Assembly (NCBI GenBank): GCA_030041095.1
Contig: JASHON010000018.1
Coordinates: 1-64,000 of the forward strand
From: Terriglobia bacterium
Lineage (GTDB): Bacteria > Acidobacteriota > Terriglobia > UBA7540
Direction of reading: 5' to 3'
Length of the DNA stretch: 64,000 bases
In this document: positions 5,858 through 17,542 of the stretch, one piece after another
Layout: each line of letters starts with the position of its first letter
Numbering within the stretch: the first letter of the stretch is position 1
Notes under the pieces: model-generated
What the model was told of the DNA's origin: nothing
The model's input: the letters and a program-made list of their open reading frames with translations, nothing else
Database searches by the model: none
Translations under genes and position numbers: made by a program

Positions 5858-6805
5858 ATGAATCGATCTAGGCGCAACACGCTTTCGCTTTTGGCGGCCG
5901 CGGCGCTCTTCCCGGGTGCGGCCCTCATGTTTGCGCAGGCGGTTCCGGCATCCGAAGGCCATCTACTTCCATACAGCGCGGCGTCGCCGGATAATTGTTG
6001 CATGTACCAACCGCCTCCAGCGGAAGCTCAGAATCCGAATGGTATGCACATTTTTATCTTTGCAGGTTTGAAGTCGCATGGGCCGGGTGAGCACGATTAT
6101 CCACAGTTCCTGGCCGATTGGAGCAAGTTTCTTACGGCGCACGGCGCGGTGGTCAACGGCGCGCTGCAGGCGCCGTCGGCGGAGGATCTGGCCTACACGG
6201 ACGTCGTTGTGATCTATAAGGGCGATGCCGGTTTTATGACTCCGAAGGAACATGCAGCATTCCTGGCCTACGTCAAGCGCGGTGGCGGCTTAGTGAGTAT
6301 CCACGATTCGCTCTGCGGACCCGACCCCGAAGATATGGCCGAGTTCGTCGGCGGCGGCAAAAAACACGGCCAGGTCAATTATACTCTCCTCGCGCGCCTC
6401 ACCTACGACGCAGTGGACCGATCTTCTCCAATCATGGAAGGTTTCCCCAACAGGTTCTCAACTGATGATGAAGCTTTCTACCGCATGACGTGGGCGACCG
6501 ATCCCAAGATTCACGTTCTGGCGACCGTGAAGATTCCAAACACTCCGTCTGCCCGGCGGGGCGGCGGGGTGGGACAGGTGGTTCCTCAAATCTGGACGTA
6601 TGAGCACGCGCTTGACGGTGGCCGGCCGGCCCGGGCGTTTGTCTGGATGCAGGGGCACGCCTACGAGAATTTCTCCAACCCGGTGATTCAGAATATGCTG
6701 CTTCGCGGCATCGCCTGGGCGGCCAAGCGTCCGGTCGACGAGCTCGTTGATTACAAGCCGCGCGTCAAGCCGCGTTCCGCTTTTATCCCGATGCGCAAGC
6801 GATAG
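5858..6805 (+). CDS. ThuA-like domain protein, exported
   Basis: A 315-aa protein with a positively charged, alanine-rich leader (MNRSRRNTLSLLAAAALFPG), possibly Tat or Sec dependent. A ThuA-like fold (class I glutamine amidotransferase-like) follows, with HIFIFAGLKSHGPGEHDY, VVVIYKGDAGFM, GGGLVSIHDSLCG and WMQGHAYENF. ThuA-like proteins are common next to quinoproteins and Gfo/Idh enzymes in Acidobacteriota and Planctomycetota, and their reaction is not established. It lies 45 bases after the PQQ dehydrogenase on the same strand and probably belongs to the same transcript. Confidence 0.8.
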   Translation: MNRSRRNTLSLLAAAALFPGAALMFAQAVPASEGHLLPYSAASPDNCCMYQPPPAEAQNPNGMHIFIFAGLKSHGPGEHDYPQFLADWSKFLTAHGAVVNGALQAPSAEDLAYTDVVVIYKGDAGFMTPKEHAAFLAYVKRGGGLVSIHDSLCGPDPEDMAEFVGGGKKHGQVNYTLLARLTYDAVDRSSPIMEGFPNRFSTDDEAFYRMTWATDPKIHVLATVKIPNTPSARRGGGVGQVVPQIWTYEHALDGGRPARAFVWMQGHAYENFSNPVIQNMLLRGIAWAAKRPVDELVDYKPRVKPRSAFIPMRKR

Positions 6806-6812
6806 TGGCGTC

Positions 6813-7250
6813 CTTACGCGCCATACGCTGATCACTGAATTGGCGGAAAGCGGCGCAGGTAACGAAATGATGATGGACATAGCCGGCCATGTATCCCGCC
6901 GGACGCTGAGGCACTATACAGGCTGCGGAAAAACTCTTTCGGGAGTTGACGTAGCGCCGGCTTCCAGCCGGCAACTCCCTTCAATTCAACGGAGGCCGGC
7001 AAGATGCCGGCGCCACGTTCGCGGCGTCGTCGAGCTTTTCCGTAGCCTGTATAGCCACATCCGAATGCAGCCCAAGCGGGAAGCTCTCGAGGCCCTCTTA
7101 CAGAAACAGCGAGCCACGGCAAACAAGGAAGAAGCGGAGCAAGCGCAGCCGTGCCTACCAATTGTACCGGTTTCTACGGCTATAGAAGGAGAGCCCTTCC
7201 AAAATCCCGTACATAGCCTGCAAGAACCGAGGCAAAATTGGTGTCAGTAG
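6813..7250 (+). pseudogene. Tyrosine recombinase C-terminal remnant, split by a MITE
   Basis: The frame reads RHTLITELAESGAGNEMMMD, then IAGHVSRRTLRHY, the box-II part of a tyrosine recombinase (R-H-x-L, GHVS, HY). It breaks at 6919 and resumes after 7050 as YSHIRMQPKREALEALLQK. If the insert is removed, the junction codons read H-Y-S-H-I-R-M, so the catalytic Tyr region was intact before insertion. The N-terminal two thirds of the gene are missing; only ThuA coding sequence lies upstream. It lies just outside the left att repeat, so it may belong to an earlier element at the same hot spot. Confidence 0.75.
6919..7049. mobile_element. 131-bp MITE-like insertion with terminal inverted repeats
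   Basis: The left end CAGGCTGCGGAAAAACTC and the reverse complement of the right end CAGGCTACGGAAAAGCTC match at 16 of 18 positions. Both flanks read TATA (6915-6918 and 7050-7053), fitting a TA or TATA target duplication of the kind made by IS630/Tc1-type transposases. Removing the element plus one flank restores a continuous recombinase frame. There is no coding capacity. The inside holds GC-rich hairpin arms (GCCGGCTTCCAGCCGGC and GCCGGCAAGATGCCGGC). Non-autonomous mobilisation is an inference. Confidence 0.8.
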
Positions 7251-7272: not shown

Positions 7273-7317
7273 ATGGCTCCTCGGGCAGGACCCGAACCTT
7301 CAACCATTCGGTTAACA
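7273..7317. repeat. Left att-like repeat: displaced 3' half of tRNA-Asn
   Basis: These 45 bases match 42 of 45 positions of 17467-17511, the 3' half (CCA end, acceptor, T arm, anticodon loop) of the intact minus-strand tRNA-Asn. Identity ends at the anticodon loop (TGTTAACCG), a common crossover point for tyrosine recombinases in tRNA genes. Beyond it the sequence no longer folds as a tRNA. Confidence 0.85.
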
Positions 7318-7450
7318 CTAATACCATCAATACTTTGAGCGAGCCGCAGGATTGCGACATGTTACCCGACCTTGAGAACTTAATCGGGCCGTCGTGATCG
7401 CAGCCTTGCGGGCCGTTGATCGTTTTTTGCACTCATTTTGAAAGAGCACT

Positions 7451-7468
7451 CCTACAAAAACCCCTACA
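7451..7468. repeat. 18-bp direct repeat near the left att, copy 1
   Basis: CCTACAAAAACCCCTACA matches the copy at 7559-7576 at 17 of 18 positions, and each copy holds two CCTACA halves. Short direct repeats 130-300 bp inside an att site fit integrase arm-type binding sites; that role is an inference. Confidence 0.5.
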
Positions 7469-7558
7469 CTTTTTTGCTGCAAAATGGTGCAACCGTCTTT
7501 GTGCTTTCGCCGAGAGTTTCCGGTTTGTTGAGGCCGGCTTGCCTCGTGCGGCAAAGTC

Positions 7559-7576
7559 CCTACAAAAATCCCTACA
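7559..7576. repeat. 18-bp direct repeat near the left att, copy 2
   Basis: CCTACAAAAATCCCTACA is the second copy, 108 bases after the first, in the same orientation, with one substitution. Confidence 0.5.
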
Positions 7577-7677
7577 GTCGGTGCGCAAGCGGCCGATAGT
7601 TGCCAACCTCTGAATTCCTGGTGGTGCATTCCTTTTAACCGGTGGTCTTCCTCATAAATTTCTAACCCGCTCTGCTA

Positions 7678-7706
7678 TTGACTCGGCGGAGCATCTCAAG
7701 TTGAAT
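7678..7706 (+). promoter_or_regulatory. Candidate promoter of the helicase-nuclease gene
   Basis: TTGACT at 7678-7683 is a good -35 element. A weak -10 (TTGAAT at 7701-7706) follows at 17-bp spacing, 24 bases before the ATG. The -10 is poor, so this is tentative. Confidence 0.3.
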
Positions 7707-7730
7707 ATATGGTAACGGAGGGGCGCTGCC

Positions 7731-10700
7731 ATGACCACGTCGCTGTCCGGGGAAACAGGCCTCGAAGGCTTGATCCGCGACAGAGCTACTCGTCTATTCA
7801 TTTATCTCAAGGAACTGACCGAGCTACGGAGTGAGGTCAAGCGGAACTGCGACGAATACGAGCAAGTCATTTGGTGGGGTGAGATTCCGCGAGAAAAAGA
7901 GTGCTATTGCGCCGCGTGGGACCTCGGACGCGAGAGTGCTTACGAGGATTGGATCAGAATAGAGCGCCCGCACCGGAAGGCGCCGCCAAACCCACCGCCC
8001 ACTTTAGCTCCCTGGTTAAGTCGGCGTGATCTCGCTGATTCTTCGCTAGACGCCCCTGCGCTCAAGGAGAGCATCGTTGAAGATCTCGGCGCTGGTGCTT
8101 CCGGGGCCCAAGTCGAGCGGCAGACGGTTATTCGGAGATTGGAAGAATGTCCGACCATCACCCGACAGTGGGAGCTTTACGTTGAAAACCTGTGGTGGCC
8201 GTGGGCTCTGGAAGATCGTCGGTTGGAAGCGATCCAGTCGAGCTACAACCAACTATTTGCCGCCTACCAGATGCAGGACCGGCTGGGAGAAGCATACGAG
8301 GTGGTGGTTGGAACGGGCCTTCTCGCATGGAAGCCGGCCCATGGCCCGAACGTCCGCCGTCACGTCGTCGTCTCCCAGGCCACAGTCGAATTCGACTCCA
8401 AGACCGCAGTAATTTCAGTGACACCCGCCGCGGCTGGAGCCCGTCTTACGCTTGAGCAAGATATGCTTGAGCCTCAAGACCGTCCCTTGCCTGAGGTCCA
8501 GAACCAAATCCAACAGCAGCTATCGGGAATTGGTGACGAGATCTGGTCCAGGCCTGAGTTGGTCAACTCCCTCAATGCGTATTTTCAACAACTTACCCCA
8601 GAGAATGTCCTAAGCCTTGCCCTGGAGCCGTCCAATGGTACCGGCGAGCTTACGCGTCCGTCTATGACTCTTGCCCCGGCGTTGATCGTTCGCAAGCGCA
8701 CAGAGGGAAATTTGGTTCGGGTCTTTGATGAAATTGCAAGTCAACTCAGATCCGGCGGGCTAGTTCCTCTCGGAGTAGAGAGTCTAGTTAGCATAAGCGA
8801 CGACACGGCTTCTGGAGAAAGTGGCGACGCTCTCGGGGAGGATTCAGTCCCGGAGGAACTGTATTTTCCTCTCCTTGCGAATGAGGCACAACTGCAAATC
8901 GCCCGCAAGCTCCAGGGTCGCCAGGGTGTGTTAGTGCAAGGGCCGCCGGGCACGGGTAAATCACACACGATTACGAACCTAATCTGCCATCTGCTCGCGA
9001 CAGGTCAGAAGCTGTTGGTCACCAGCCATACTGCCCGCGCACTGCGCGTCTTGAAGAATTATTTCCCTGCGGATCTTTCTCCGCTTTGTGTATTTCTCAT
9101 GGGAGACGACACCGCAGCGCTGAGCGAGCTTGAGGAGTCTGTCCAAGGCATTTTGAATCGCTTGAACACGTGGGACACAGGTACAAGCCGCGCACACATC
9201 CACAAACTACAATCTGGCCTGGATCACTCGCGGCGCGAACTGGCCGAAGCCCAGACAAGTCTGAAACAAATCCGCGCCGGCGAAACCGAATCTGTTGACC
9301 TCGGCTATGGTGGATACCGGGGAAGTCCGCAAGCTTTGGCAGAAAGACTGGCAGAAGAGGCGGCCGAATTTGAGTGGGTGACCGGAGCCGGTCATTTTGA
9401 CGGTCCGCCTCCCTTAACCAACAGCGAGGCGCTGGAATTGCTCTCATTAGCGCGAGAGTTCGGTAGCGGCGCGGACAGCGATGTCACAGCAGGGCTTCCG
9501 GAGTTGAGTTCTCTATTGGAGCCGCAACTGTTCAATGATCTAGTTCTGAAAGAAAAAGAAATCGTCGCAAGGATCCAATCTGTAGAGGAGCAGGATAGGC
9601 CCATCTTGGGATCGCTCGCTGATCTGGACCGCGCAACGAGAGAAGAACTGGCCGTGGCCTTGCGAGACCTGTGCACCGCACTCGACTCATTTGCGCAGAG
9701 GCCGGAAGCTTGGATAGGCACTGCCGTGCGTGACGTTGTCCTCGGTAAACACCACACCTGGGACCAGCTCCGCACGATCACGATGAACAAGGTAAAGACT
9801 GTGGCAAGCCGCATCTCTAAAGTTTCGGAGATGAAGCTCTCTGGTTTGGAGCAGCGAGACCTGGCCAACGTAAGGGCTGACGCTGAGACGCTCCAGGCAC
9901 GCCTGGGGTCAGGGAAGGGTGTCAGCTCCGCAGTGAAATACAACCCGTTTGCGCCCAAACGGGTGAGGGCCGCATTGTACTTGGTAGATGAGGTGAGGGT
10001 CGACGGACGGCCGTGCGATTCCTCGACCGCTATCGGCGATCTTTTGGATTTCATTGAAGTGACGAAGGCGATTGAGTACGTCGACCAGCAGTGGGCGCCA
10101 TACGTCCAAGCGGTGCCCGCCCCTGTCCTGCTAAGTTTTCGAGAGCACGAGCGGCGCGCGGATGTGCTCGCGGAGATCTTGCGATTGCGCCAATTGGTTC
10201 CTGATTTGCGAGCCGGACTGAGCCGGGCTCGTGGTCTCTCTGTCGTAGATTTATCCGATAGGCAGGCGATCTCCAAAATTCTTGGTCTTCTGAAAATCGC
10301 AACGCTTGAGGATGAACTCAGCGACCTTCGGCAAGGGTTCGCTAGGATCCAGAAACAGCTGGGTTCGCTTCAACGAGGATCTGGCACCCACCCGGTGATC
10401 AGCGAGTTGAGCGCTGCCATAGAAGCCCGTGACCTATCTCGGCACTCGCGCGCATTTGAGCAGCTCGTCAATGCCTGGAGACTTTGGACGCGCGCTCAAC
10501 GGCATCAGTTTCTCAACGAGCGGCTTGGCACGTGCAATCTTGGAGAACGGATTGGGTCTAACCCCCTCGACAACACCTGGGACAAGCGGCTGGCACGTTT
10601 TGAGTCCGCATGGAACTGGGCGCGAGCCGACGCTTGGCTTCGCCTCCGGTCGGATCCCGGCAGAGAAAGAGCAGTCCTCCAAAAGATCGACATCGCCCAG

Positions 10701-12926
10701 GAAAGAATACGTCATGACCTTGGCGAGCTTGCCGCCTGCAAGGCATGGGAGTACGTTCTGGCGCGTCTGAAACCCGAACAGCGGGAACATCTGATGGCCT
10801 GGAAATTAGCTGTCAAGAAGATCGGAAAAGGGACGGGAAAATACGCAACGCAGCATCGGAAGGAAGCGCGCTACCACCTGGAGTACTGCCGCGAAGCGAT
10901 CCCGGCTTGGGTCATGCCCATTTTTCGTATTGCCGAGACCACGAAGCCCCGGCCCAATATGTTCGATGTGGCCATAATCGACGAGGCCAGCCAGTCTGGC
11001 CCAGAAGCGCTATTTCTCTCTTATATCGCGAGGAAAATTGTGGTCGTCGGTGACGACCAACAGATCAGCCCCGAGTCGGTAGGCCTGGATCGGGAAGCGG
11101 TAGACAGCCTGCGACAACGGTACATCAGGGACGTGCCACATTGGGATGCCCTCGGTGTTGACGACAGTTTCTTCAATCAGGCGCAAATTCGTTTCTCGGC
11201 CAGAATTCGGCTCAGGGAGCATTTCCGGTGCATGCCCGAAATCATCCAGTTCTCGAACAATTTGTGTTACCAAGCCGAGCCGCTCATTCCGCTGAGGCAA
11301 TATGGGTTGGGCCGCTTGGTGCCGGTCATTACGCGGCACGTACGGGATGGATACGCGAAAGGCACCGGCGACCGAATCGTAAATAGACCAGAGGCTGAGG
11401 CCATTCTGGATCAAATTGTCCACTGTATTGCTGATCCGGCCTACGAGGGAAAGACCTTTGGGGTCATTTCCCTCCAGGGCAGCGCACAGTGGAATCTGAT
11501 TCGTGATTTGCTGTTGGATCGAATCGGCGCACAGGAGATGCAGAAACGCCGTTTAGCGGGCGGTAACGCCTACGCATTCCAGGGTGACGAGCGAGATATA
11601 ATTTTTCTGTCGATGGTTGCCGCAACAAACGACGGCCGGCATGTCGGTGTGCTTTCAAAGGAGCCTGATAAGCGAAGGTTCAACGTGGCTGCAAGCAGGG
11701 CTTGTGACCAGATGTGGCTGTTTCATAGCGTGACCGTGGAGGATCTCAGTGTACATTGCTTCAGGCGTCAGTTGCTTGAGTATTGCCTCAATCCGACGGT
11801 TAAGCACGAGACTGTTGGAAACGTCGACGTCAGCCATCTCCGTGAACGAGCGCTGCAGGCGGGCCGGGCGGATTCTCGACCATCACTGCCGTTTGATAGC
11901 TGGTTTGAAGTTGACGTTTTCCTTCGAATTGTTGATCGTGGTTTTCGCGTAATCCCGCAGTACTCAATCGCTGGCAAGTTTATCGACTTGCTGGTAGAAG
12001 GTATGCAAGGGCGGCTGGCAGTGGAGTGCGACGGGGATGAGTGGCACGGCATCGAGCAGTGGGATGCGGACATGGATCGCCAGCGAATGCTCGAAAGGTG
12101 CGGACTAGAATTTTGGCGGATAAGAGGCAGCGTGTTCTACCGGTCCCCGGATTCAGCACTCGACCCTCTGTGGCGGCGTCTTCGAGATCGAGGAATCCAT
12201 GCGAATGCGGCTGACGCACAGATCGCTGTGGACGAGCCGTCTTGCAAGCCGCCGGACCAACCGCGAAATGGCGATTCGCAACAAGGCAAATTTGACGACG
12301 AGGTATCGTTATCATCGATCGCCGACGAGTCTGCTGCGAATGGCGCGGACCTTGACTCGGAAGTCGAAGTTATCGACCAGGCTCCCGGTGAGAGCCAGCG
12401 GCCGCTCTTCGGATCGGACTCGCACGGAGACCTCCCTGTTGTGCTGGCTCCGTATGTGCCTTGGGTTCCCGACGCCGCTCCTGATCCTAATTTGGTATCG
12501 CTTCCTGAATTGATGGAGGGCCTGATCGATATCGTGACGGTCGAGGGACCGATGATTTGCCATCGAGCATATTTGCTTTACAACAGAGCCGCAGGCAATG
12601 CCCGCCTCGGCAGCCAGATTGTCCGCCTGATGAATCGCGCCATGTATCGCGCAGTCAGATCAGGACGCTTAGAGCAGAGCGACGAGCGCCGAAGGGGTGG
12701 CCAAATAAACCAAATCGTTCGAATCACCGGGACACCCGAAGCAGTTGTTCGGCAACGCGGCCCCCGAAAACTCGAAGAGATCCCTCCCCTGGAAATCAAG
12801 GCAGTCCGGGAAGCAATCTTGAGCAAGAATCCAAACGTCGGGGAAGATCACCTTGTTCGCCGGCTAGCGCGCGTATATGAGGTCGGGCGGATAACCGCGC
12901 AAACCCGGAAACTGCTTCTCGGGTGA
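7731..12926 (+). CDS. 1731-aa SF1 helicase with C-terminal Vsr/MTES_1575-type nuclease, probable phage-defence protein
   Basis: The start ATG has GGAGGGG 7 bases upstream. An uncharacterised N-terminal region (about 1-390) is followed by Walker A GPPGTGKS (about 405), a long helical insert (about 460-1070), Walker B IIDEAS with GDDQQISP (about 1081-1110), then FQGDERD (about 1282) and NVAASRA (about 1317), which complete a superfamily-1 core. Residues about 1390-1490 form a PD-(D/E)xK nuclease of the Vsr/DUF559/MTES_1575 kind (IDLLVEG, VECDGDEWHG, FWRIRGS). A C-terminal DUF3320-like domain covers about 1565-1731. This order resembles the DUF4011-helicase-Vsr-DUF3320 proteins (Hhe) reported as single-gene anti-phage systems; membership of that family is an inference. 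All motifs look intact. Confidence 0.85.
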   Translation: MTTSLSGETGLEGLIRDRATRLFIYLKELTELRSEVKRNCDEYEQVIWWGEIPREKECYCAAWDLGRESAYEDWIRIERPHRKAPPNPPPTLAPWLSRRDLADSSLDAPALKESIVEDLGAGASGAQVERQTVIRRLEECPTITRQWELYVENLWWPWALEDRRLEAIQSSYNQLFAAYQMQDRLGEAYEVVVGTGLLAWKPAHGPNVRRHVVVSQATVEFDSKTAVISVTPAAAGARLTLEQDMLEPQDRPLPEVQNQIQQQLSGIGDEIWSRPELVNSLNAYFQQLTPENVLSLALEPSNGTGELTRPSMTLAPALIVRKRTEGNLVRVFDEIASQLRSGGLVPLGVESLVSISDDTASGESGDALGEDSVPEELYFPLLANEAQLQIARKLQGRQGVLVQGPPGTGKSHTITNLICHLLATGQKLLVTSHTARALRVLKNYFPADLSPLCVFLMGDDTAALSELEESVQGILNRLNTWDTGTSRAHIHKLQSGLDHSRRELAEAQTSLKQIRAGETESVDLGYGGYRGSPQALAERLAEEAAEFEWVTGAGHFDGPPPLTNSEALELLSLAREFGSGADSDVTAGLPELSSLLEPQLFNDLVLKEKEIVARIQSVEEQDRPILGSLADLDRATREELAVALRDLCTALDSFAQRPEAWIGTAVRDVVLGKHHTWDQLRTITMNKVKTVASRISKVSEMKLSGLEQRDLANVRADAETLQARLGSGKGVSSAVKYNPFAPKRVRAALYLVDEVRVDGRPCDSSTAIGDLLDFIEVTKAIEYVDQQWAPYVQAVPAPVLLSFREHERRADVLAEILRLRQLVPDLRAGLSRARGLSVVDLSDRQAISKILGLLKIATLEDELSDLRQGFARIQKQLGSLQRGSGTHPVISELSAAIEARDLSRHSRAFEQLVNAWRLWTRAQRHQFLNERLGTCNLGERIGSNPLDNTWDKRLARFESAWNWARADAWLRLRSDPGRERAVLQKIDIAQERIRHDLGELAACKAWEYVLARLKPEQREHLMAWKLAVKKIGKGTGKYATQHRKEARYHLEYCREAIPAWVMPIFRIAETTKPRPNMFDVAIIDEASQSGPEALFLSYIARKIVVVGDDQQISPESVGLDREAVDSLRQRYIRDVPHWDALGVDDSFFNQAQIRFSARIRLREHFRCMPEIIQFSNNLCYQAEPLIPLRQYGLGRLVPVITRHVRDGYAKGTGDRIVNRPEAEAILDQIVHCIADPAYEGKTFGVISLQGSAQWNLIRDLLLDRIGAQEMQKRRLAGGNAYAFQGDERDIIFLSMVAATNDGRHVGVLSKEPDKRRFNVAASRACDQMWLFHSVTVEDLSVHCFRRQLLEYCLNPTVKHETVGNVDVSHLRERALQAGRADSRPSLPFDSWFEVDVFLRIVDRGFRVIPQYSIAGKFIDLLVEGMQGRLAVECDGDEWHGIEQWDADMDRQRMLERCGLEFWRIRGSVFYRSPDSALDPLWRRLRDRGIHANAADAQIAVDEPSCKPPDQPRNGDSQQGKFDDEVSLSSIADESAANGADLDSEVEVIDQAPGESQRPLFGSDSHGDLPVVLAPYVPWVPDAAPDPNLVSLPELMEGLIDIVTVEGPMICHRAYLLYNRAAGNARLGSQIVRLMNRAMYRAVRSGRLEQSDERRRGGQINQIVRITGTPEAVVRQRGPRKLEEIPPLEIKAVREAILSKNPNVGEDHLVRRLARVYEVGRITAQTRKLLLG

Positions 12927-13052
12927 GCACTAAGCATCAGGAAGGCCCGGGAGAAGCGGCGGTGTCGGCACCCGTCTGGAGACAGTCATTTTCGGGTACA
13001 AGCCTCGACCACCGCAAAACAGTCGGCACACAGTCGTGCCTGCCTAACCATA

Positions 13053-14588
13053 ATGACAAGCCCACTACTCAAACATCGCGAGGGGATCCGTAAACTCGCC
13101 AAATCCCTTCGGAAAACCGACATATATCACTGGCTTGTCGAGTTTGGCTACTTTCCTGAAAACTACGTCCTGCCGCCGTGTTTCCGCGTAGCAAGAAGAC
13201 CGACCAAACCAAAGTTGCTCTTTGTGGTAACAAAGAACGGAAAATTTTCTCCAGACCGGACCCAGTGCGTGAATGTTCATTTTCCGAAGACGGCTCTCAC
13301 AGACAGGACCTTTGGTGTTATTCACCCCAAGATACACAATGACATTGCTTACCATCTCTCTACAAATTGGAGCACGGTCGTTCGAGCGATGTTCCCCTCT
13401 GATAGCCAAGTTTGCTCCTACGGCTTTCCAATTCCAATTGACGCTAAATCTCCTGCCCGGATCGGCTATTTACGAAGTGGTTGGATGATTTACGAATACG
13501 TCGGCCAAATGGAGGGAGACGTGACAGCCGCTTAGTACAGCTATACTCACATTGTCAGGACCGACATTAAGAATTTCTATCCGTCGATCCACACTCACAG
13601 TATCGCGTGGGCAATTCATGGTAAGGACTACGTACGGAGACCTGCGAACCGGAACAACCCCAGGTTTCTGGGTAACCGGCTGGACAGACTGTTCCAGAAT
13701 GCCAACGACGGGTGCACAAACGGGGTTCCAATTGGACCTGTAGTTTCAGACATGATAGCGGAGATTGTTGCCTCGGCCGCGGACCGGCTGTTCTCCACGC
13801 GGCTAGCCAGGAAAAAGATCGACTGCGAGGTGGTTCGGTTTAAGGACGACTATCGCATTCTCACAAAATCTGAAGAGGCCGCCAAGTCGGCGGTGAAGCT
13901 ACTCTAAGCTTCCCTAAAAGAGTACAACCTAGAGCTGAGCGATGAGAAGAGTACGATCTCGGCCCTTCCTGACGGATTGTTCCGCGAGTGGGTTTCTATG
14001 TATCACGCCGCAAACCCAAAGAGGAAAAACCAATATAACTGGAAGGATTTTAGGGAATTATATCTGTCGGTGCTTCGAATTGACAAAGCCTGTCCGGGTA
14101 GCGGGGTCATCGACCGATTCTTAGCGGACCTCGTGACAAAAGGGGGAAAGCTTCGGGTCACTGTGGGAAAATTCAACCTCCAAAAAGTAATCAGCATGCT
14201 GCTCATGCTAGGGACGCTCCGCCCGAAGGCTTTTCCAAAGATTGTGGCGATTCTTGAGGCGATTCTTTCGAGCCGCTTCGGTACACTTCATCGAAAGCTC
14301 ATAATCGATCATCTTGAATCCTACGTCAGTTCATTATGCGGCGAGGAAGAAAGAAACAAGTATCTCATCTCATGGATCGGGTACTTCTTGGTGAGTAATG
14401 GCTTGAAGAATAAGCTCTCACGGAATCCACAGCTGAAAGACACAATCACACGGTCGGTGTTTAGCAACAGGGGACTACTGTTTAAGGGATGCAAGGAGTT
14501 TAAGCTTTTCGTGGGCTGCCGGAGCGCCAGAAGGAAAATGTCGATGCCAGAGCACCTTGATGTCTTTCACCCTCCCAAAACCGCTTAG
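13053..14588 (+). pseudogene. Defence-type reverse transcriptase, interrupted by two in-frame stop codons
   Basis: One continuous frame of 511 sense or stop codons encodes an unknown-group (UG/DRT-like) reverse transcriptase. A TAG at 13533-13535 and a TAA at 13905-13907 interrupt it without any frameshift. The segment between them carries motif A (RTDIKNFYPSI, Asp at 13563), motif B (GVPIGPVVSD) and motif C (RFKDDY, Asp pair at 13845-13850). The N-terminal 160 codons resemble the FP/IPH entry region of such enzymes. The C-terminal 200 codons are alpha-helical. Both stops would arise from Gln codons by single C-to-T changes. Neither the N-terminal peptide nor any restart could contain motif A with motif C, so the gene is probably inactive. 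Which DRT class it belongs to cannot be told by eye. Confidence 0.8.
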
Positions 14589-14793
14589 TCCACTAGGATG
14601 GCATTTGGCTGTGGTTAGAGAAGGACCTCGTGCGCAGAGGACAATGATCGGCAAACCTGACACTGAAAACCATCAAAACACGCCTGCTTCCAGCCTATAC
14701 CGGGGTTCAAATGGACGCCACGTAGGGTAGATTGTTGCGATTGTCAACAGGGTGCAGCTTCCAAACAACTGGTCGCCTGAAGAAGTGGGATGG

Positions 14794-15450
14794 CTAGAGG
14801 GCATACCCGAAGTCGTGTGACTGCTGATGGGCAGGTTGTCTGGGCTGGGTCTGAACCTGCTCTTGATGGTGTTCCATGGCGGCGCGCTTTGAGATTTTGC
14901 GGGTTAGCTCAATTCCCACGCCTCGTGAGTTGTCGGTGCAAATCTTGGCTTCGTAGCGGGCGCGGGAGATTGAGACGTACGCGAAGCGGCTGTTCAAAAG
15001 CTTCTTGTGGGCTTGGCGCGTATCAACGTTCACCAGGACACGGTCCGCCGTTAGGCCCTGGCTGCTGTGGCTGGTGACTGCGTAGCCGTAATCAAGATGC
15101 GGATGCTTTCGCATTGAGAATTCCACCGTTCGGCTCGAATCGAGTTGGATCGAGAGCATTCTGTTGGATCGAAGCTCCTTGATTCCGCCGAGGTCTCGAC
15201 TGGCAATCCGTTTGTCCCGATAAGGGGCCGTGAACTGGATGTGGTCGCCAACTGAAATACTGCGCTCGACCTCCTGGTATACGGTCACCCCTTGCAGCCG
15301 GCGGGGATCGTAAGTCACTGTCTTGGCGTTGGCCCTCTTGACTGTCACGAGATTTATGCGGCGATCGGAATCGACCACGCGAACATATTCCCCCGCCTTG
15401 AGCTTCAGGACGTGGCTGCCTTTCGTGAAGCGTACCACGTGGCCGCCCGG
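14794..15450 (-). pseudogene. MobF/TraA-type conjugative relaxase, C-terminal helicase fragment
   Basis: On the minus strand the translation from about 15440 reads VVRFTKGSHVLKLKAGEYVR, later LDYGYAVTSHSSQGLTADRV and SRFAYVSISRARYEAKI, ending at TAG 14794-14796. These are the final SF1 helicase motifs (the TSHSSQG/VALSRA-like pair) of MobF relaxases such as TraA/TraI. The relaxase and Walker A parts are missing; upstream the sequence switches to an unrelated antitoxin-like fragment on the other strand. It is a relic of the conjugative machinery of the island. Confidence 0.75.
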
Positions 15451-15495
15451 CACCGCCCGGCCCATTGCCGGTCTGCACCCGTCATTTCTTGCCGT

Positions 15496-15759
15496 GGCAC
15501 CAGCACCCTCATGATCGTCCTGCACCGTGCGTATATACCGGTTGAGGACACGCAAGAAATTCCCGGAGTGCGCTGCACGACTGCGCTGCGCACCATGATT
15601 GATCTCGCGGGGGAACAGCGCACGGACACAACGCTCCTTCGGCAGGCCGTTCGGGAGGCCCTGGCGCGCGGGCTGGTACGCCGCGATCAATTAGAGCGCG
15701 AAGACCTGCCCCCACTGCTCCGTCGCGAATTTCGAGTACTCGCTAGCGCTCATGCCTGA
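15496..15759 (+). pseudogene. AbiEi-like antitoxin / DUF559-associated protein, C-terminal fragment
   Basis: From about 15505 the frame reads MIVLHRAYIPVEDTQEIPGV, then CTTALRTMIDLAGE and REALARGLVRRDQLERED. This matches the pattern HRA-x-IP-x-D plus TT-x-x-RT-x-x-DLA plus EAL-x-RGLV, typical of the middle of AbiEi-like antitoxin proteins. The N-terminal helix-turn-helix half is missing and is replaced by sequence antisense to the relaxase fragment. No AbiEii-like nucleotidyltransferase partner is present. Confidence 0.55.
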
Positions 15760-15827
15760 ATCGAGAGAATACAAAACGGCTTCCGCCCTTCGGACCGCGC
15801 TCGAAACCCGGCACCTGCGAAGGATAC

Positions 15828-15856
15828 TTGAATTAGCATATTGCATGCAATATCAT
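15828..15856 (+). promoter_or_regulatory. Promoter with an overlapping 16-bp palindromic operator for the PIN toxin-antitoxin pair
   Basis: TTGAAT (15828-15833), a 17-bp spacer and TATCAT (15851-15856) form a good sigma-70 promoter. The perfect palindrome ATATTGCATGCAATAT (15838-15853) fills the spacer and the start of the -10. The ATG at 15867 lies 10 bases after the -10, so the transcript should be leaderless or nearly so. Autorepression by the RHH-type antitoxin at this palindrome is an inference. Confidence 0.65.
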
Positions 15857-15866
15857 AAATCGTAGT

Positions 15867-16316
15867 ATGAGGGCGTACGTTGTGGACACGGATGTGCTCA
15901 TCGCAGCATTTCGAAGCGATGCAGGCGCATCTCGGTGGCTGTTGGAGGCGGCGCGAGCTCGCCGGTTTCAGTTGCTGTTGTCGGTGCCGCTGATGCTGGA
16001 ATACGAGTCCGTTCTCACCCGCACGGAGCATTTAGCTGCTTCCGGAGCGACTCGAGAAGACGTATCTGCGGTTCTCGACGAATTGGTTTTGGTATGCGAA
16101 AGAGTTGAGCTGGCGGTCCGCCTGCGTCCGATGCTGCCCGATCCGAACGACGAGATGGTTTTGGAGACCGCGATCAACGGAAGGGCCGATGCGATAATTA
16201 CATTCAATGAACGGCATTTTCGAAGCGTTGCGGGTCATTTCGGGTGTTCAGTATTGCTGCCCGTCGAGGCCGTCCGCCAACTGGTGCGTGATGACGAGGA
16301 GGAAGCGAATCAATGA
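15867..16316 (+). CDS. PIN-domain ribonuclease toxin (COG1569/VapC-like)
   Basis: A 149-aa PIN-fold protein. Acidic positions fit the active site: VVDTDVLIAAF at the N-terminus, LEYESVLTR in the middle, LPDPNDEMVLETA and ADAIITFNERHF near the end. It belongs to the 'putative toxin component, PIN family' group and should cleave RNA when free of its antitoxin. The next gene starts inside its stop codon (ATGA at 16313-16316). There is no ribosome site ahead of the ATG, consistent with leaderless translation from the promoter just upstream. Confidence 0.85.
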   Translation: MRAYVVDTDVLIAAFRSDAGASRWLLEAARARRFQLLLSVPLMLEYESVLTRTEHLAASGATREDVSAVLDELVLVCERVELAVRLRPMLPDPNDEMVLETAINGRADAIITFNERHFRSVAGHFGCSVLLPVEAVRQLVRDDEEEANQ

Positions 16317-16597
16317 GGCGAAGCAATTTTGCGCTGCGAGTACCGCCCACGCTATTGGCCGAAGCGCGTAAAGCGGCCGAATCCGAAGGCGTAGCGTTGA
16401 ACCAGCTCATTACCCTTGCGCTTGCGGAAAAGGTCTCTGCCATGCGGACCGAAGAATATTTTGAGGAGCGTGCACGCCGAGCGAATTCAACTAAGGTCAA
16501 CCGCATTCTCAGCCGTGTGGGCAAGGGTAATCCTCCTGTCGAGGGTGACGAACTTCCTCCGGACCTAATTCGGAGGAAAAAACAGAGCAAGAAGTGA
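16313..16597 (+). CDS. Ribbon-helix-helix antitoxin of the PIN toxin
   Basis: A 94-aa protein overlapping the PIN toxin by 4 bases. The N-terminal part, FALRVPPTLLAEARKAAESE and then GVALNQLITLALAEK, is a ribbon-helix-helix DNA-binding pattern like that of HicB-type and VapB-type antitoxins (beta strand FALRVPP, two helices, the VALNQLI turn). The C-terminus is charged and probably wraps the toxin. It is expected to neutralise the PIN toxin and bind the palindrome at 15838-15853. Confidence 0.8.
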   Translation: MRRSNFALRVPPTLLAEARKAAESEGVALNQLITLALAEKVSAMRTEEYFEERARRANSTKVNRILSRVGKGNPPVEGDELPPDLIRRKKQSKK

Positions 16598-16605
16598 GGA
16601 AGAGT

Positions 16606-16917
16606 ATGTCGGTTCACAAACGAGGAAATGTTTGGTGGTACGACTTCACATTTGCCGGTAGACGAATTCAGGAGTCGACGAAATCACCCTCGAAGACAGC
16701 TGCGAAGCTGGCAGAGCAAAAACGCAAGCGCCAGTTGGAACTGGGGATTAACAGCATCGAAGATGCCCGCGAGGAATTCATCCGGCCCCTCCGCGAAGTG
16801 GCTGACGAATACTTGGAGAGCTATTCGCTTTGGTCATCGGTCTACGATCTTTGCCGAGTACGCGGTCAAGCTCGCGTCAACAGGCCCGCCGCAATAGCGC
16901 TTGATAGCAAGCAGTAA
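16606..16917 (+). pseudogene. Integrase (tyrosine recombinase) N-terminal fragment with frameshift
   Basis: The start at ATG 16606 follows GAGGAAGAG. The frame reads MSVHKRGNVWWYDFTFAGRR and continues with the arm-type DNA-binding domain and the beginning of the core-binding domain (VADEYLESYS). Around 16825 the likely reading shifts: the neighbouring frame gives HRSTIFAEYAVKLAS, the expected continuation. Both frames end by about 16917, so the catalytic domain is missing. It was probably the integrase of the island, or of a later insertion, before decay. Confidence 0.7.
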
Positions 16918-16930
16918 CAATAGGTAGTAT
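16901..16930 (+). promoter_or_regulatory. Candidate promoter of hicBA
   Basis: TTGATA (16901-16906), an 18-bp spacer and TAGTAT (16925-16930) lie directly before the ATG at 16937. As with the PIN pair, the distance leaves almost no leader. Confidence 0.45.
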
Positions 16931-16936
16931 ATAGGC

Positions 16937-17149
16937 ATGGTGTTTCACGTGACGCTTACCAGGGCCGAGGATGGATGGGTTGTGGCCGAGTGCCCAGCTC
17001 TTCCCGGCTGCGTCTCTCAGGGCAAGGACGAGCAAGAAGCGCTCAGCAACATCAAGGAAGCTATTTCCGGCTGGCTTTGGGCTGAAGACCAGAAAGCCCT
17101 ATCCGAATCTTCGAGAGCCAACCAACCCGAGATTCTCGTCTCTGTCTAA
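16937..17149 (+). CDS. hicB: HicB-family antitoxin (short form)
   Basis: A 70-aa protein with the HicB partial RNase-H-like fold: FHVTLTRAEDGWVVAECPAL, then PGCVSQGKDEQEALSNIKEA. It is the short form without a C-terminal DNA-binding domain. It should bind and block the HicA mRNA interferase encoded 5 bases downstream. The antitoxin-first order is one of the two known arrangements. Confidence 0.85.
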   Translation: MVFHVTLTRAEDGWVVAECPALPGCVSQGKDEQEALSNIKEAISGWLWAEDQKALSESSRANQPEILVSV

Positions 17150-17154
17150 TCCAG

Positions 17155-17382
17155 GTGGCCCGGCTTGCCAACATTTCCGGCAAGGAAGTTGTGAAGGCTT
17201 TCGAGAAGGCCGGGTGGCAAGTTGCCGGGCAGGTAGGGAGCCACGTGATTATGACGAAGCCCGGCTCCCGTGCCAATCTCTCCATTCCGCAACACAAAGA
17301 ACTTTCTATCGGCACATTGCGCGCCCTCATTCGGCACGCCGGACTAACGGTAGATCAATTTCTGATCCTCACAGAATCCTGA
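17155..17382 (+). CDS. hicA: HicA-family mRNA interferase toxin
   Basis: A 75-aa double-stranded-RNA-binding-like protein starting at GTG. It has SGKEVVKAFEKAGWQVAGQ, the catalytic-His motif GSHVIM, and SIPQHKELSIGTLRALIRHA, all typical of HicA. It should cleave mRNA when freed from HicB. The pair sits 85 bases from the right att site, a typical place for an addiction module that stabilises an integrated element. Confidence 0.85.
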   Translation: MARLANISGKEVVKAFEKAGWQVAGQVGSHVIMTKPGSRANLSIPQHKELSIGTLRALIRHAGLTVDQFLILTES

Positions 17383-17466
17383 ACGTGGAAAAGCACCAAA
17401 TTTTGAGGGTGAGGTACACCAAATTCCCGGTAAGAAAATCGCTCTCACGCCAACTCATTGAAAATA

Positions 17467-17511
17467 ATGGCTCCTCGGGCAGGACTCGAACCTGCAACCC
17501 TTCGGTTAACA
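17467..17511. repeat. Right att-like repeat within tRNA-Asn
   Basis: Counterpart of 7273-7317 with 3 differences in 45 bases (positions 20, 28 and 34 of the repeat). It covers the CCA end, T arm and anticodon loop of the functional tRNA. Confidence 0.85.
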
Positions 17512-17542
17512 GCCGAATGCTCTACCATTGAGCTACCGAGGA
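17468..17542 (-). tRNA. tRNA-Asn (anticodon GTT), CCA encoded
   Basis: The reverse strand reads TCCTCGG at the 5' end and CCGAGGAG-CCA at the 3' end (7-bp acceptor stem). The anticodon stem-loop CGGCTGTTAACCG gives GTT, and the T arm contains GGTTCGAGTCC. All arms pair, so the gene is intact although it carries the right att repeat. The 3' end points into the island. Confidence 0.95.

Follow-up and report, generated by a model that had tools for sequence, protein, structure and literature searches.

A predicted single-gene helicase-nuclease from an unnamed sister family of Hhe and ProA, with an apparently exchangeable C-terminal module

The window analysed here is a stretch of 64,000 nucleotides from a Terriglobia bacterium (contig JASHON010000018.1). 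The gene under study lies in an element of about 10.2 kb (7274-17511) framed by a duplication of the 3' end of a tRNA-Asn gene. The tRNA-Asn (GTT; 17468-17542, minus strand) forms the right end of the element, and an att-like copy of its 3' end, identical at 41 of 44 positions (sequence match E 2e-13), the left end (7274-7317, no strand assigned). The gene thus has a mobile context, as a first-pass annotation made from the sequence had assumed. Its description as the only large intact gene of a decayed element also holds: apart from ORFs overlapping it, those of the element reach at most 298 aa, and the integrase remnants score below the Pfam cut-off. One of these, a weak arm-domain remnant (16594-16914, plus strand; PF12167, E 0.017), lies inside the element. 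The other, a likewise weak C-terminal remnant on the plus strand (6747-7247; PF00589, E 0.0011, 19.2 against 27.1 bits), lies outside the left att copy, which points to an earlier or tandem insertion at this tRNA; the remnant is interrupted (6747-7250) by a short palindrome rich in GC. Island cargo outside the system proposed below consists of a PIN_3 domain ORF (15867-16313, plus strand) followed by a HicB-like ORF (16313-16594); the two overlap end to end (15867-16594) in a toxin-antitoxin-like arrangement. Within the window, no recognised defence system adjoins the helicase-nuclease gene. Of 7 contigs from relatives, 6 have a tRNA-Asn close to the same polyprenyl synthetase gene, and at that tRNA a relative from the same genus (G001) carries a PIN gene (86%), another cargo gene (73%) and further partial tRNA copies. 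The tRNA-Asn is therefore an integration hotspot.

The gene itself (7731-12926, plus strand) runs from an ATG start to a stop codon without internal stop and encodes the 1731-aa protein originally annotated. It begins with an unnamed N-terminal domain (residues 1-380; 7731-8870, plus strand), delimited on an AF2 model. The first part of RecA1 follows (8880-9110, plus strand; placed by Pfam, the family alignment and the model) and carries the Walker A motif GPPGTGK at residues 404-410; here the Pfam family AAA_11 matches residues 384-438, with only the first 65 of its 257 model positions. An all-helical insert of about 600 residues (roughly 461-1056; 9111-10898, plus strand, from the secondary structure of the model) separates Walker A from motif II. 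The second part of RecA1, with DEASQ at 1084, and RecA2, with FQGDERD at 1283 and VAASRA at 1319, together form a UPF1-like region (10899-11795, plus strand), in which AAA_12 matches the second helicase half (1144-1330). Next comes a Vsr-type PD-(D/E)xK nuclease of the MTES_1575 family (residues 1392-1484; 11904-12182, plus strand), whose Pfam match (PF18741, E 1.7e-26) scores 92.5 bits against a gathering score of 38.2. Both the split SF1 helicase and the nuclease of the first-pass annotation are thereby borne out. The gene ends in a C-terminal module (12201-12923, plus strand; defined by clustering and profile comparison), in which an acidic linker leads into a DUF3320-like region; winged helices are probable there from about residue 1588 on.

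The motif set is complete, with GDDQQ at 1107, EHFRC at 1163 and ECDG at 1432 in addition to those already named (DEASQ occupying 1084-1088). No substitution occurs in 29 family members at G404, G407-K410, D1084, E1085, Q1284, R1323, E1393 or D1419, and conservation of E1432 and D1434 is at least 90%; the window protein retains the nuclease residues E1393, D1419, E1432 and D1434, and the catalytic columns are also conserved in an alignment of 56 members. At E<=1, Pfam found no DUF4011, HEPN or transglutaminase match in the protein; a HEPN domain hidden in the N-terminus was set aside on this basis.

Structure models were built on alignments that drew on 64 and 55 of the 67 locus rows. In the model of residues 376-1505 (56 sequences; mean pLDDT 87.4, pTM 0.67), residues 461-1056 are helical nearly throughout. 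Compared with solved structures by Foldseek, the motor matches Senataxin best (E 2.5e-11), followed by UPF1 and Dna2, and its superposition on UPF1 and IGHMBP2 gives Z scores of 20-24 across about 400 residues. The motor thus has both the SF1 motifs and a UPF1/DNA2-like fold. UvrD and HelD match it as well (Z 18-23). The model of residues 1-388 (AF2, 65 sequences; pLDDT 89.7, pTM 0.82) is a confident prediction, with a long helix at 141-188 and, directly after it, beta strands at 189-233; in the region before RecA1, where a stalk and a 1B/OB barrel were looked for, helices surround strands with no structural match. At E<=0.001, no match came from the PDB (Foldseek, best E 0.13) or from BFVD, where the best hit was to an AAA domain protein (E 0.024), and VIA-align 2 gave nothing usable (at best Z 4.3, with 44 residues at rmsd 2.2). 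The N-terminus was therefore not assigned to a known fold, which does not imply a new one, and the earlier remark that the first 390 residues hold no nameable domain stands even with a confident model in hand. Its identity as DUF4011 was likewise dropped: the match to the DUF4011-side region of ProA is faint (hhalign, 52 columns, E 3.7e-4, probability 36), yet the full-length alignment with ProA is co-linear from residue 176 to the C-terminal end.

Profile and tree comparison place the window protein in an unnamed family that is sister to Hhe and ProA. The Hhe-type label given at first pass is not supported: the SF1 helicase and Vsr-type nuclease are homologous to those of Hhe (NF042953; PADLOC PDLC02194) over residues 1058-1487, but the protein scores 135.2 bits against a curated cut-off of 2000, and the DUF4011 that the first-pass annotation had proposed to search for gives no match (Pfam, E<=1). 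The anti-phage protein ProA (NF058533) and the DUF4011-SF1 helicase-MTES_1575-DUF3320 giants have the same nuclease and DUF3320-like tail, and the alignment is co-linear for most of its length (hhalign 100%, E 2.6e-80, columns 166-1678 against 386-1823). Nevertheless, the window protein reaches 196 bits where the curated cut-off is 1500 and has no DUF4011 match, and its clade is separate and fully supported in the core tree, where one ProA row forms a long branch. The ProA cut-off is passed by 3 of 149 phylum genomes, G000 not among them. The best PADLOC match is PDC-S37 (PDLC05009; E 2.4e-61), itself a candidate system, which aligns from the second half of the helicase to the tail; the 205.9 bits on this 1550-position model are spread over two stretches, the best covering only 918-1524. 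Given this partial match and a best E among 29 members of 2.5e-72, the clade looks like a sister of the PDLC05009 model. The top NCBIfam and PADLOC matches of the 29 members tested are the same as those of the window protein.

Similar architectures have been described before. Giants combining HEPN, transglutaminase, SF1 helicase, Vsr and wHTH domains were reported in 2013, and defence without a methyltransferase was proposed for them (PMC3710099). They share with the window protein the order of helicase, Vsr nuclease and C-terminal wHTH/DUF3320, but HEPN and transglutaminase domains gave no Pfam match here, and the passages of that paper that describe the giants make no mention of tail exchange. 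In CoCoNuT type III-B, CnuH is a UPF1-like helicase that carries a large helical insertion behind Walker A and is fused directly to a Vsr-type nuclease; its wHTH is N-terminal, whereas the module of the window protein is C-terminal (PMC11090510). Pfam found none of the type III-B partners (CnuB/McrB GTPase, CnuC; McrB/McrC-type) among 17 different ORFs around the gene. Since the helicase-Vsr-wHTH order and the CoCoNuT III-B helicase have both been described, the kind of protein is known; a literature search that mostly covered journals outside subscription, without supplements, found no paper naming the clade or its tail exchange.

Members of the family differ in the region after the nuclease. 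Thirty-eight of 90 full-length relatives, a count that includes L128, a near-duplicate of L127, end at most 60 residues past the nuclease, and the other 52 carry 60 to 471 more (L081, L090, L095, L100, L107, L119, L128, L132 and L136 are left out of the tail-length lists, L128 nonetheless being counted in the 90). Pfam applied to 53 tails, these 52 and that of the window protein, found DUF3320 in 7, GreA_GreB in 6, the DNA-binding domain of Lsr2 in 3, arginase in 2 and a DksA/TraR zinc finger in 1. The window tail has no Pfam match at E<=0.01, DUF3320 included, but it falls into a 17-member cluster, and when a profile from 16 of these members was compared with ProA proteins it matched their DUF3320 end (hhalign 98.2%, E 6.3e-14); the tail is called DUF3320-like because of this alignment, in agreement with the original annotation. 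One case of exchange is given by a relative from the phylum (L034) and one from a viral contig (L125), which are 67-94% identical per 100 residues up to residue 1500; past this point their tails are unrelated (15 of 47 aligned), being winged-helix-like in one and Gre-like in the other. On a tree of 94 cores, built without L107, L128, L132 and L136, 21-23 changes are required to explain the tail types, and at least 3 changes of the Gre label fall on well-supported branches, the assignment of tails to the Gre, Lsr2 and DksA types beyond the Pfam counts resting on inspection and clustering. A second tree (IQ-TREE, 51 of the 94 rows) again requires 3 changes for the Gre label. The tail of L132, a protein outside both trees, looks Gre-like too. 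Judged at the sequence level, the region after the nuclease is thus an exchangeable module, occupied by DUF3320/winged helix, Lsr2, GreA/GreB, DksA, arginase or nothing.

Several tails deserve separate mention. Those of L053, L066, L079, L080, L090, L104, L107 and L131 share a C-terminal domain that contains an ALWVIGG-like motif and finishes in a PAW-like sequence, and for which no matching family is visible among the Pfam results; its spread over the core tree suggests that this domain, too, has been exchanged repeatedly. In two Paractinoplanes loci (L120, 14165-14932; L122, 13982-14758) an arginase-like domain is fused after the nuclease, and the close relative L089 ends without one. Targeting hardly explains why a helicase-nuclease should carry an arginase, and the domain might be an effector. 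Finally, the BREX-linked member on plasmid p3ABAYE (L216, 11920-16650) has no long tail and an apparent winged helix at its N-terminus, so that the recognition part may sit at either end of the protein.

The distribution of the family bears on what such an enzyme is for. At E<=1e-60, strong matches were found in 14 of 396 phylum genomes, which represent 13 of 211 genera and include the window's own genome; at E<=1e-3, 11 of the 61 nearest genomes gave a match. The best 80 of 390 confirmed loci in a genome scan come, by record title, from many phyla, including Bryobacterales, Actinomycetes, Bacillaceae, Clostridia, Planctomycetes, Proteobacteria, Flavobacteriaceae, Chloroflexi and others. Plasmids contribute 39 records at E<=1e-60 and viral contigs 13 loci, the latter found with the family alignment as query; a viral scan with the single window protein as query gave no match, and phage records gave two weak ones. 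By these scans the spread of the family is patchy, with members in many phyla as well as on plasmids and viral contigs. Two Rhodococcus loci each hold two members close together in the same direction (L093, 3273-8264 and 9896-14953; L096, 47-5152 and 9974-15310).

The only close copy of the window gene lies on a 3.3 kb contig from another genus (G033) and is 89.3% identical in amino acids over 868 codons, with dS 0.32. The polyprenyl synthetases in the same pair of genomes share 77% identity, and their synonymous sites are saturated (pS 0.758). This yardstick is a single housekeeping gene and therefore small, but the gap is large, and it follows that the helicase-nuclease gene moved recently; by this comparison it has been transferred between genera. 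The corresponding dN of 0.053 gives a dN/dS of about 0.16. The gene is under purifying selection, in line with the earlier suggestion that selection has kept it. Stops or split frames in some relatives (three stops in G014, a split frame in L045) mean that selection is not uniform across the family. Together with the degraded surrounding element, such broken copies would suit a passenger gene without present function that is intact only because it arrived recently; the ratio of dN to dS over the 868 codons and the retention of every catalytic motif make this a very improbable account of the window gene.

A transcription- or repair-associated genome maintenance helicase, comparable to HelD, UvrD or Mfd-type proteins, would be another way to read the family. 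GreA/GreB- and DksA-like tails would then tether the enzyme to RNA polymerase, and the nuclease would process R-loops or damaged DNA, helping the host rather than fighting invaders. The 6 GreA_GreB tails and the single DksA/TraR tail among 53, as well as the structural matches of the motor to UvrD and HelD, speak for it, although such matches are common to SF1 helicases in general. The very patchy presence in the phylum, the recent transfer between genera, the occurrence of members on islands, plasmids and viral contigs and their position inside BREX or type I restriction clusters speak against it, and we consider it unlikely. A housekeeping helicase was dropped as first choice because the spread is patchy and the transfer recent; the first-pass annotation had named such a protein as the contrary outcome, and with a strong match in only 14 of the 396 phylum genomes it was not seen. 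A DUF4011 gene of a neighbouring family is core in Pseudomonas aeruginosa (PMC10250203), so the superfamily is not always island-borne.

The neighbours of family members argue for an enzyme that acts alone, as was originally proposed. Among 1094 neighbour ORFs no conserved partner gene was found, the largest cluster covering 4 of 109 loci, and the 21 genes that follow a member within 150 bp all differ from one another. A possible lineage-specific partner is a 271-aa gene that starts within 3 bp behind a tailless member on two Streptomyces plasmids (L030, 14536-15351; L189, 13472-14287). Known defence genes are found next to several members. On the Acinetobacter plasmids p3ABAYE and CP090417, a member lies 63 bp behind brxL, in the same orientation, within a type I BREX cluster; elsewhere, BrxC lies downstream of L037 (1448.7 bits), BrxL and PglZ upstream of the distant member L136, and PglZ upstream of L079, and in L087 only 86 bp separate the member from the end of a type I restriction subunit upstream. 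When the Acinetobacter pglZ and brxL and the BrxC of L037 were compared by tblastn with 109 loci (L029-L137), BREX genes were found only in L037, L136 and L079, and BREX is therefore an occasional rather than a regular neighbour. PD-(D/E)xK auxiliary effectors are listed in a BREX paper (NAR 2026, PMC12839542). Taken across several independent loci, defence genes thus recur beside members but have no fixed place there.

A PADLOC comparison points in the same direction and is suggestive only: 100 neighbour ORFs matched 102 models and 100 control ORFs matched 48, counted as models rather than distinct proteins, and many of the 48 apparently fall on one UvrD-like protein. The neighbours were 100 of 281 chosen from 417 candidates; the controls, a weak set, were 100 of 150 ORFs from 20 random regions in only 4 genomes, and one of these regions fell on an Hhe-like gene whose open-ended ORF was excluded. 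The lists of matched families cover 25 families for the neighbours and 25 for the controls. Scanned singly, 3 of 10 neighbours gave a PADLOC match.

The same surroundings allow a narrower reading, in which the enzyme guards its island, plasmid or prophage against competing elements, by plasmid or superinfection exclusion, and not the whole cell. One intact large gene in a decayed tRNA-Asn element and the relatives on plasmids and viral contigs would fit this. The BREX-linked L037 is chromosomal, since it lies on a 6.5-Mb contig, and there is no conserved exclusion partner; the chance that element exclusion is the main role seems small to us.

We favour as reasonably probable the reading that the window protein, a member of this unnamed family, is a single-gene defence enzyme directed against phages or other invading elements, and a defence activity as such is likely. 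The nearest worked-out analogy is Hachiman, in which the helicase restrains the nuclease until damage is sensed; HamAB, a sensor helicase controlling a nuclease, serves as model for the proposed mechanism, but it is encoded by two genes and uses another helicase family, so the analogy goes no further (PMC12278908). In the defence enzyme proposed here, the tail would dock the protein on its target, which for the DUF3320-like winged helices of the window protein would be DNA. Other members would respond to AT-rich foreign DNA through an Lsr2 tail or to RNA polymerase through a GreA/GreB or DksA tail. Once docked, the motor would translocate along an exposed strand, and its ATP-driven movement, relayed via the helical insert, would release or position the nuclease, which could cut the invading DNA or all DNA, that of the infected cell included. 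The tail thus probably decides what is attacked, a role that arginase tails and the absence of a tail in 38 of 90 relatives fit poorly in its simple form.

A more tentative proposal, which we regard as possible but rather doubtful, is that helicase and nuclease form a chassis on which the C-terminal module picks the sensing principle: DNA sequence or structure for DUF3320/winged-helix tails, AT-rich foreign DNA for Lsr2 tails, and RNA polymerase for GreA/GreB and DksA tails, so that the Gre- and DksA-tailed members police transcription. These members would ride RNA polymerase and destroy DNA whose transcription looks foreign or has been remodelled by a phage. We know of no defence system that rides RNA polymerase to destroy foreign-looking transcribed DNA. 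The repeated position beside BREX is a second reason to test the family. Should the proposed reading be right, recognition parts have been exchanged many times in a widespread, unnamed defence family whose motor and nuclease stayed in place, what such helicase-nucleases sense becomes directly testable through tail exchange, and RNA polymerase itself may be able to serve as a sensing platform in bacterial immunity.
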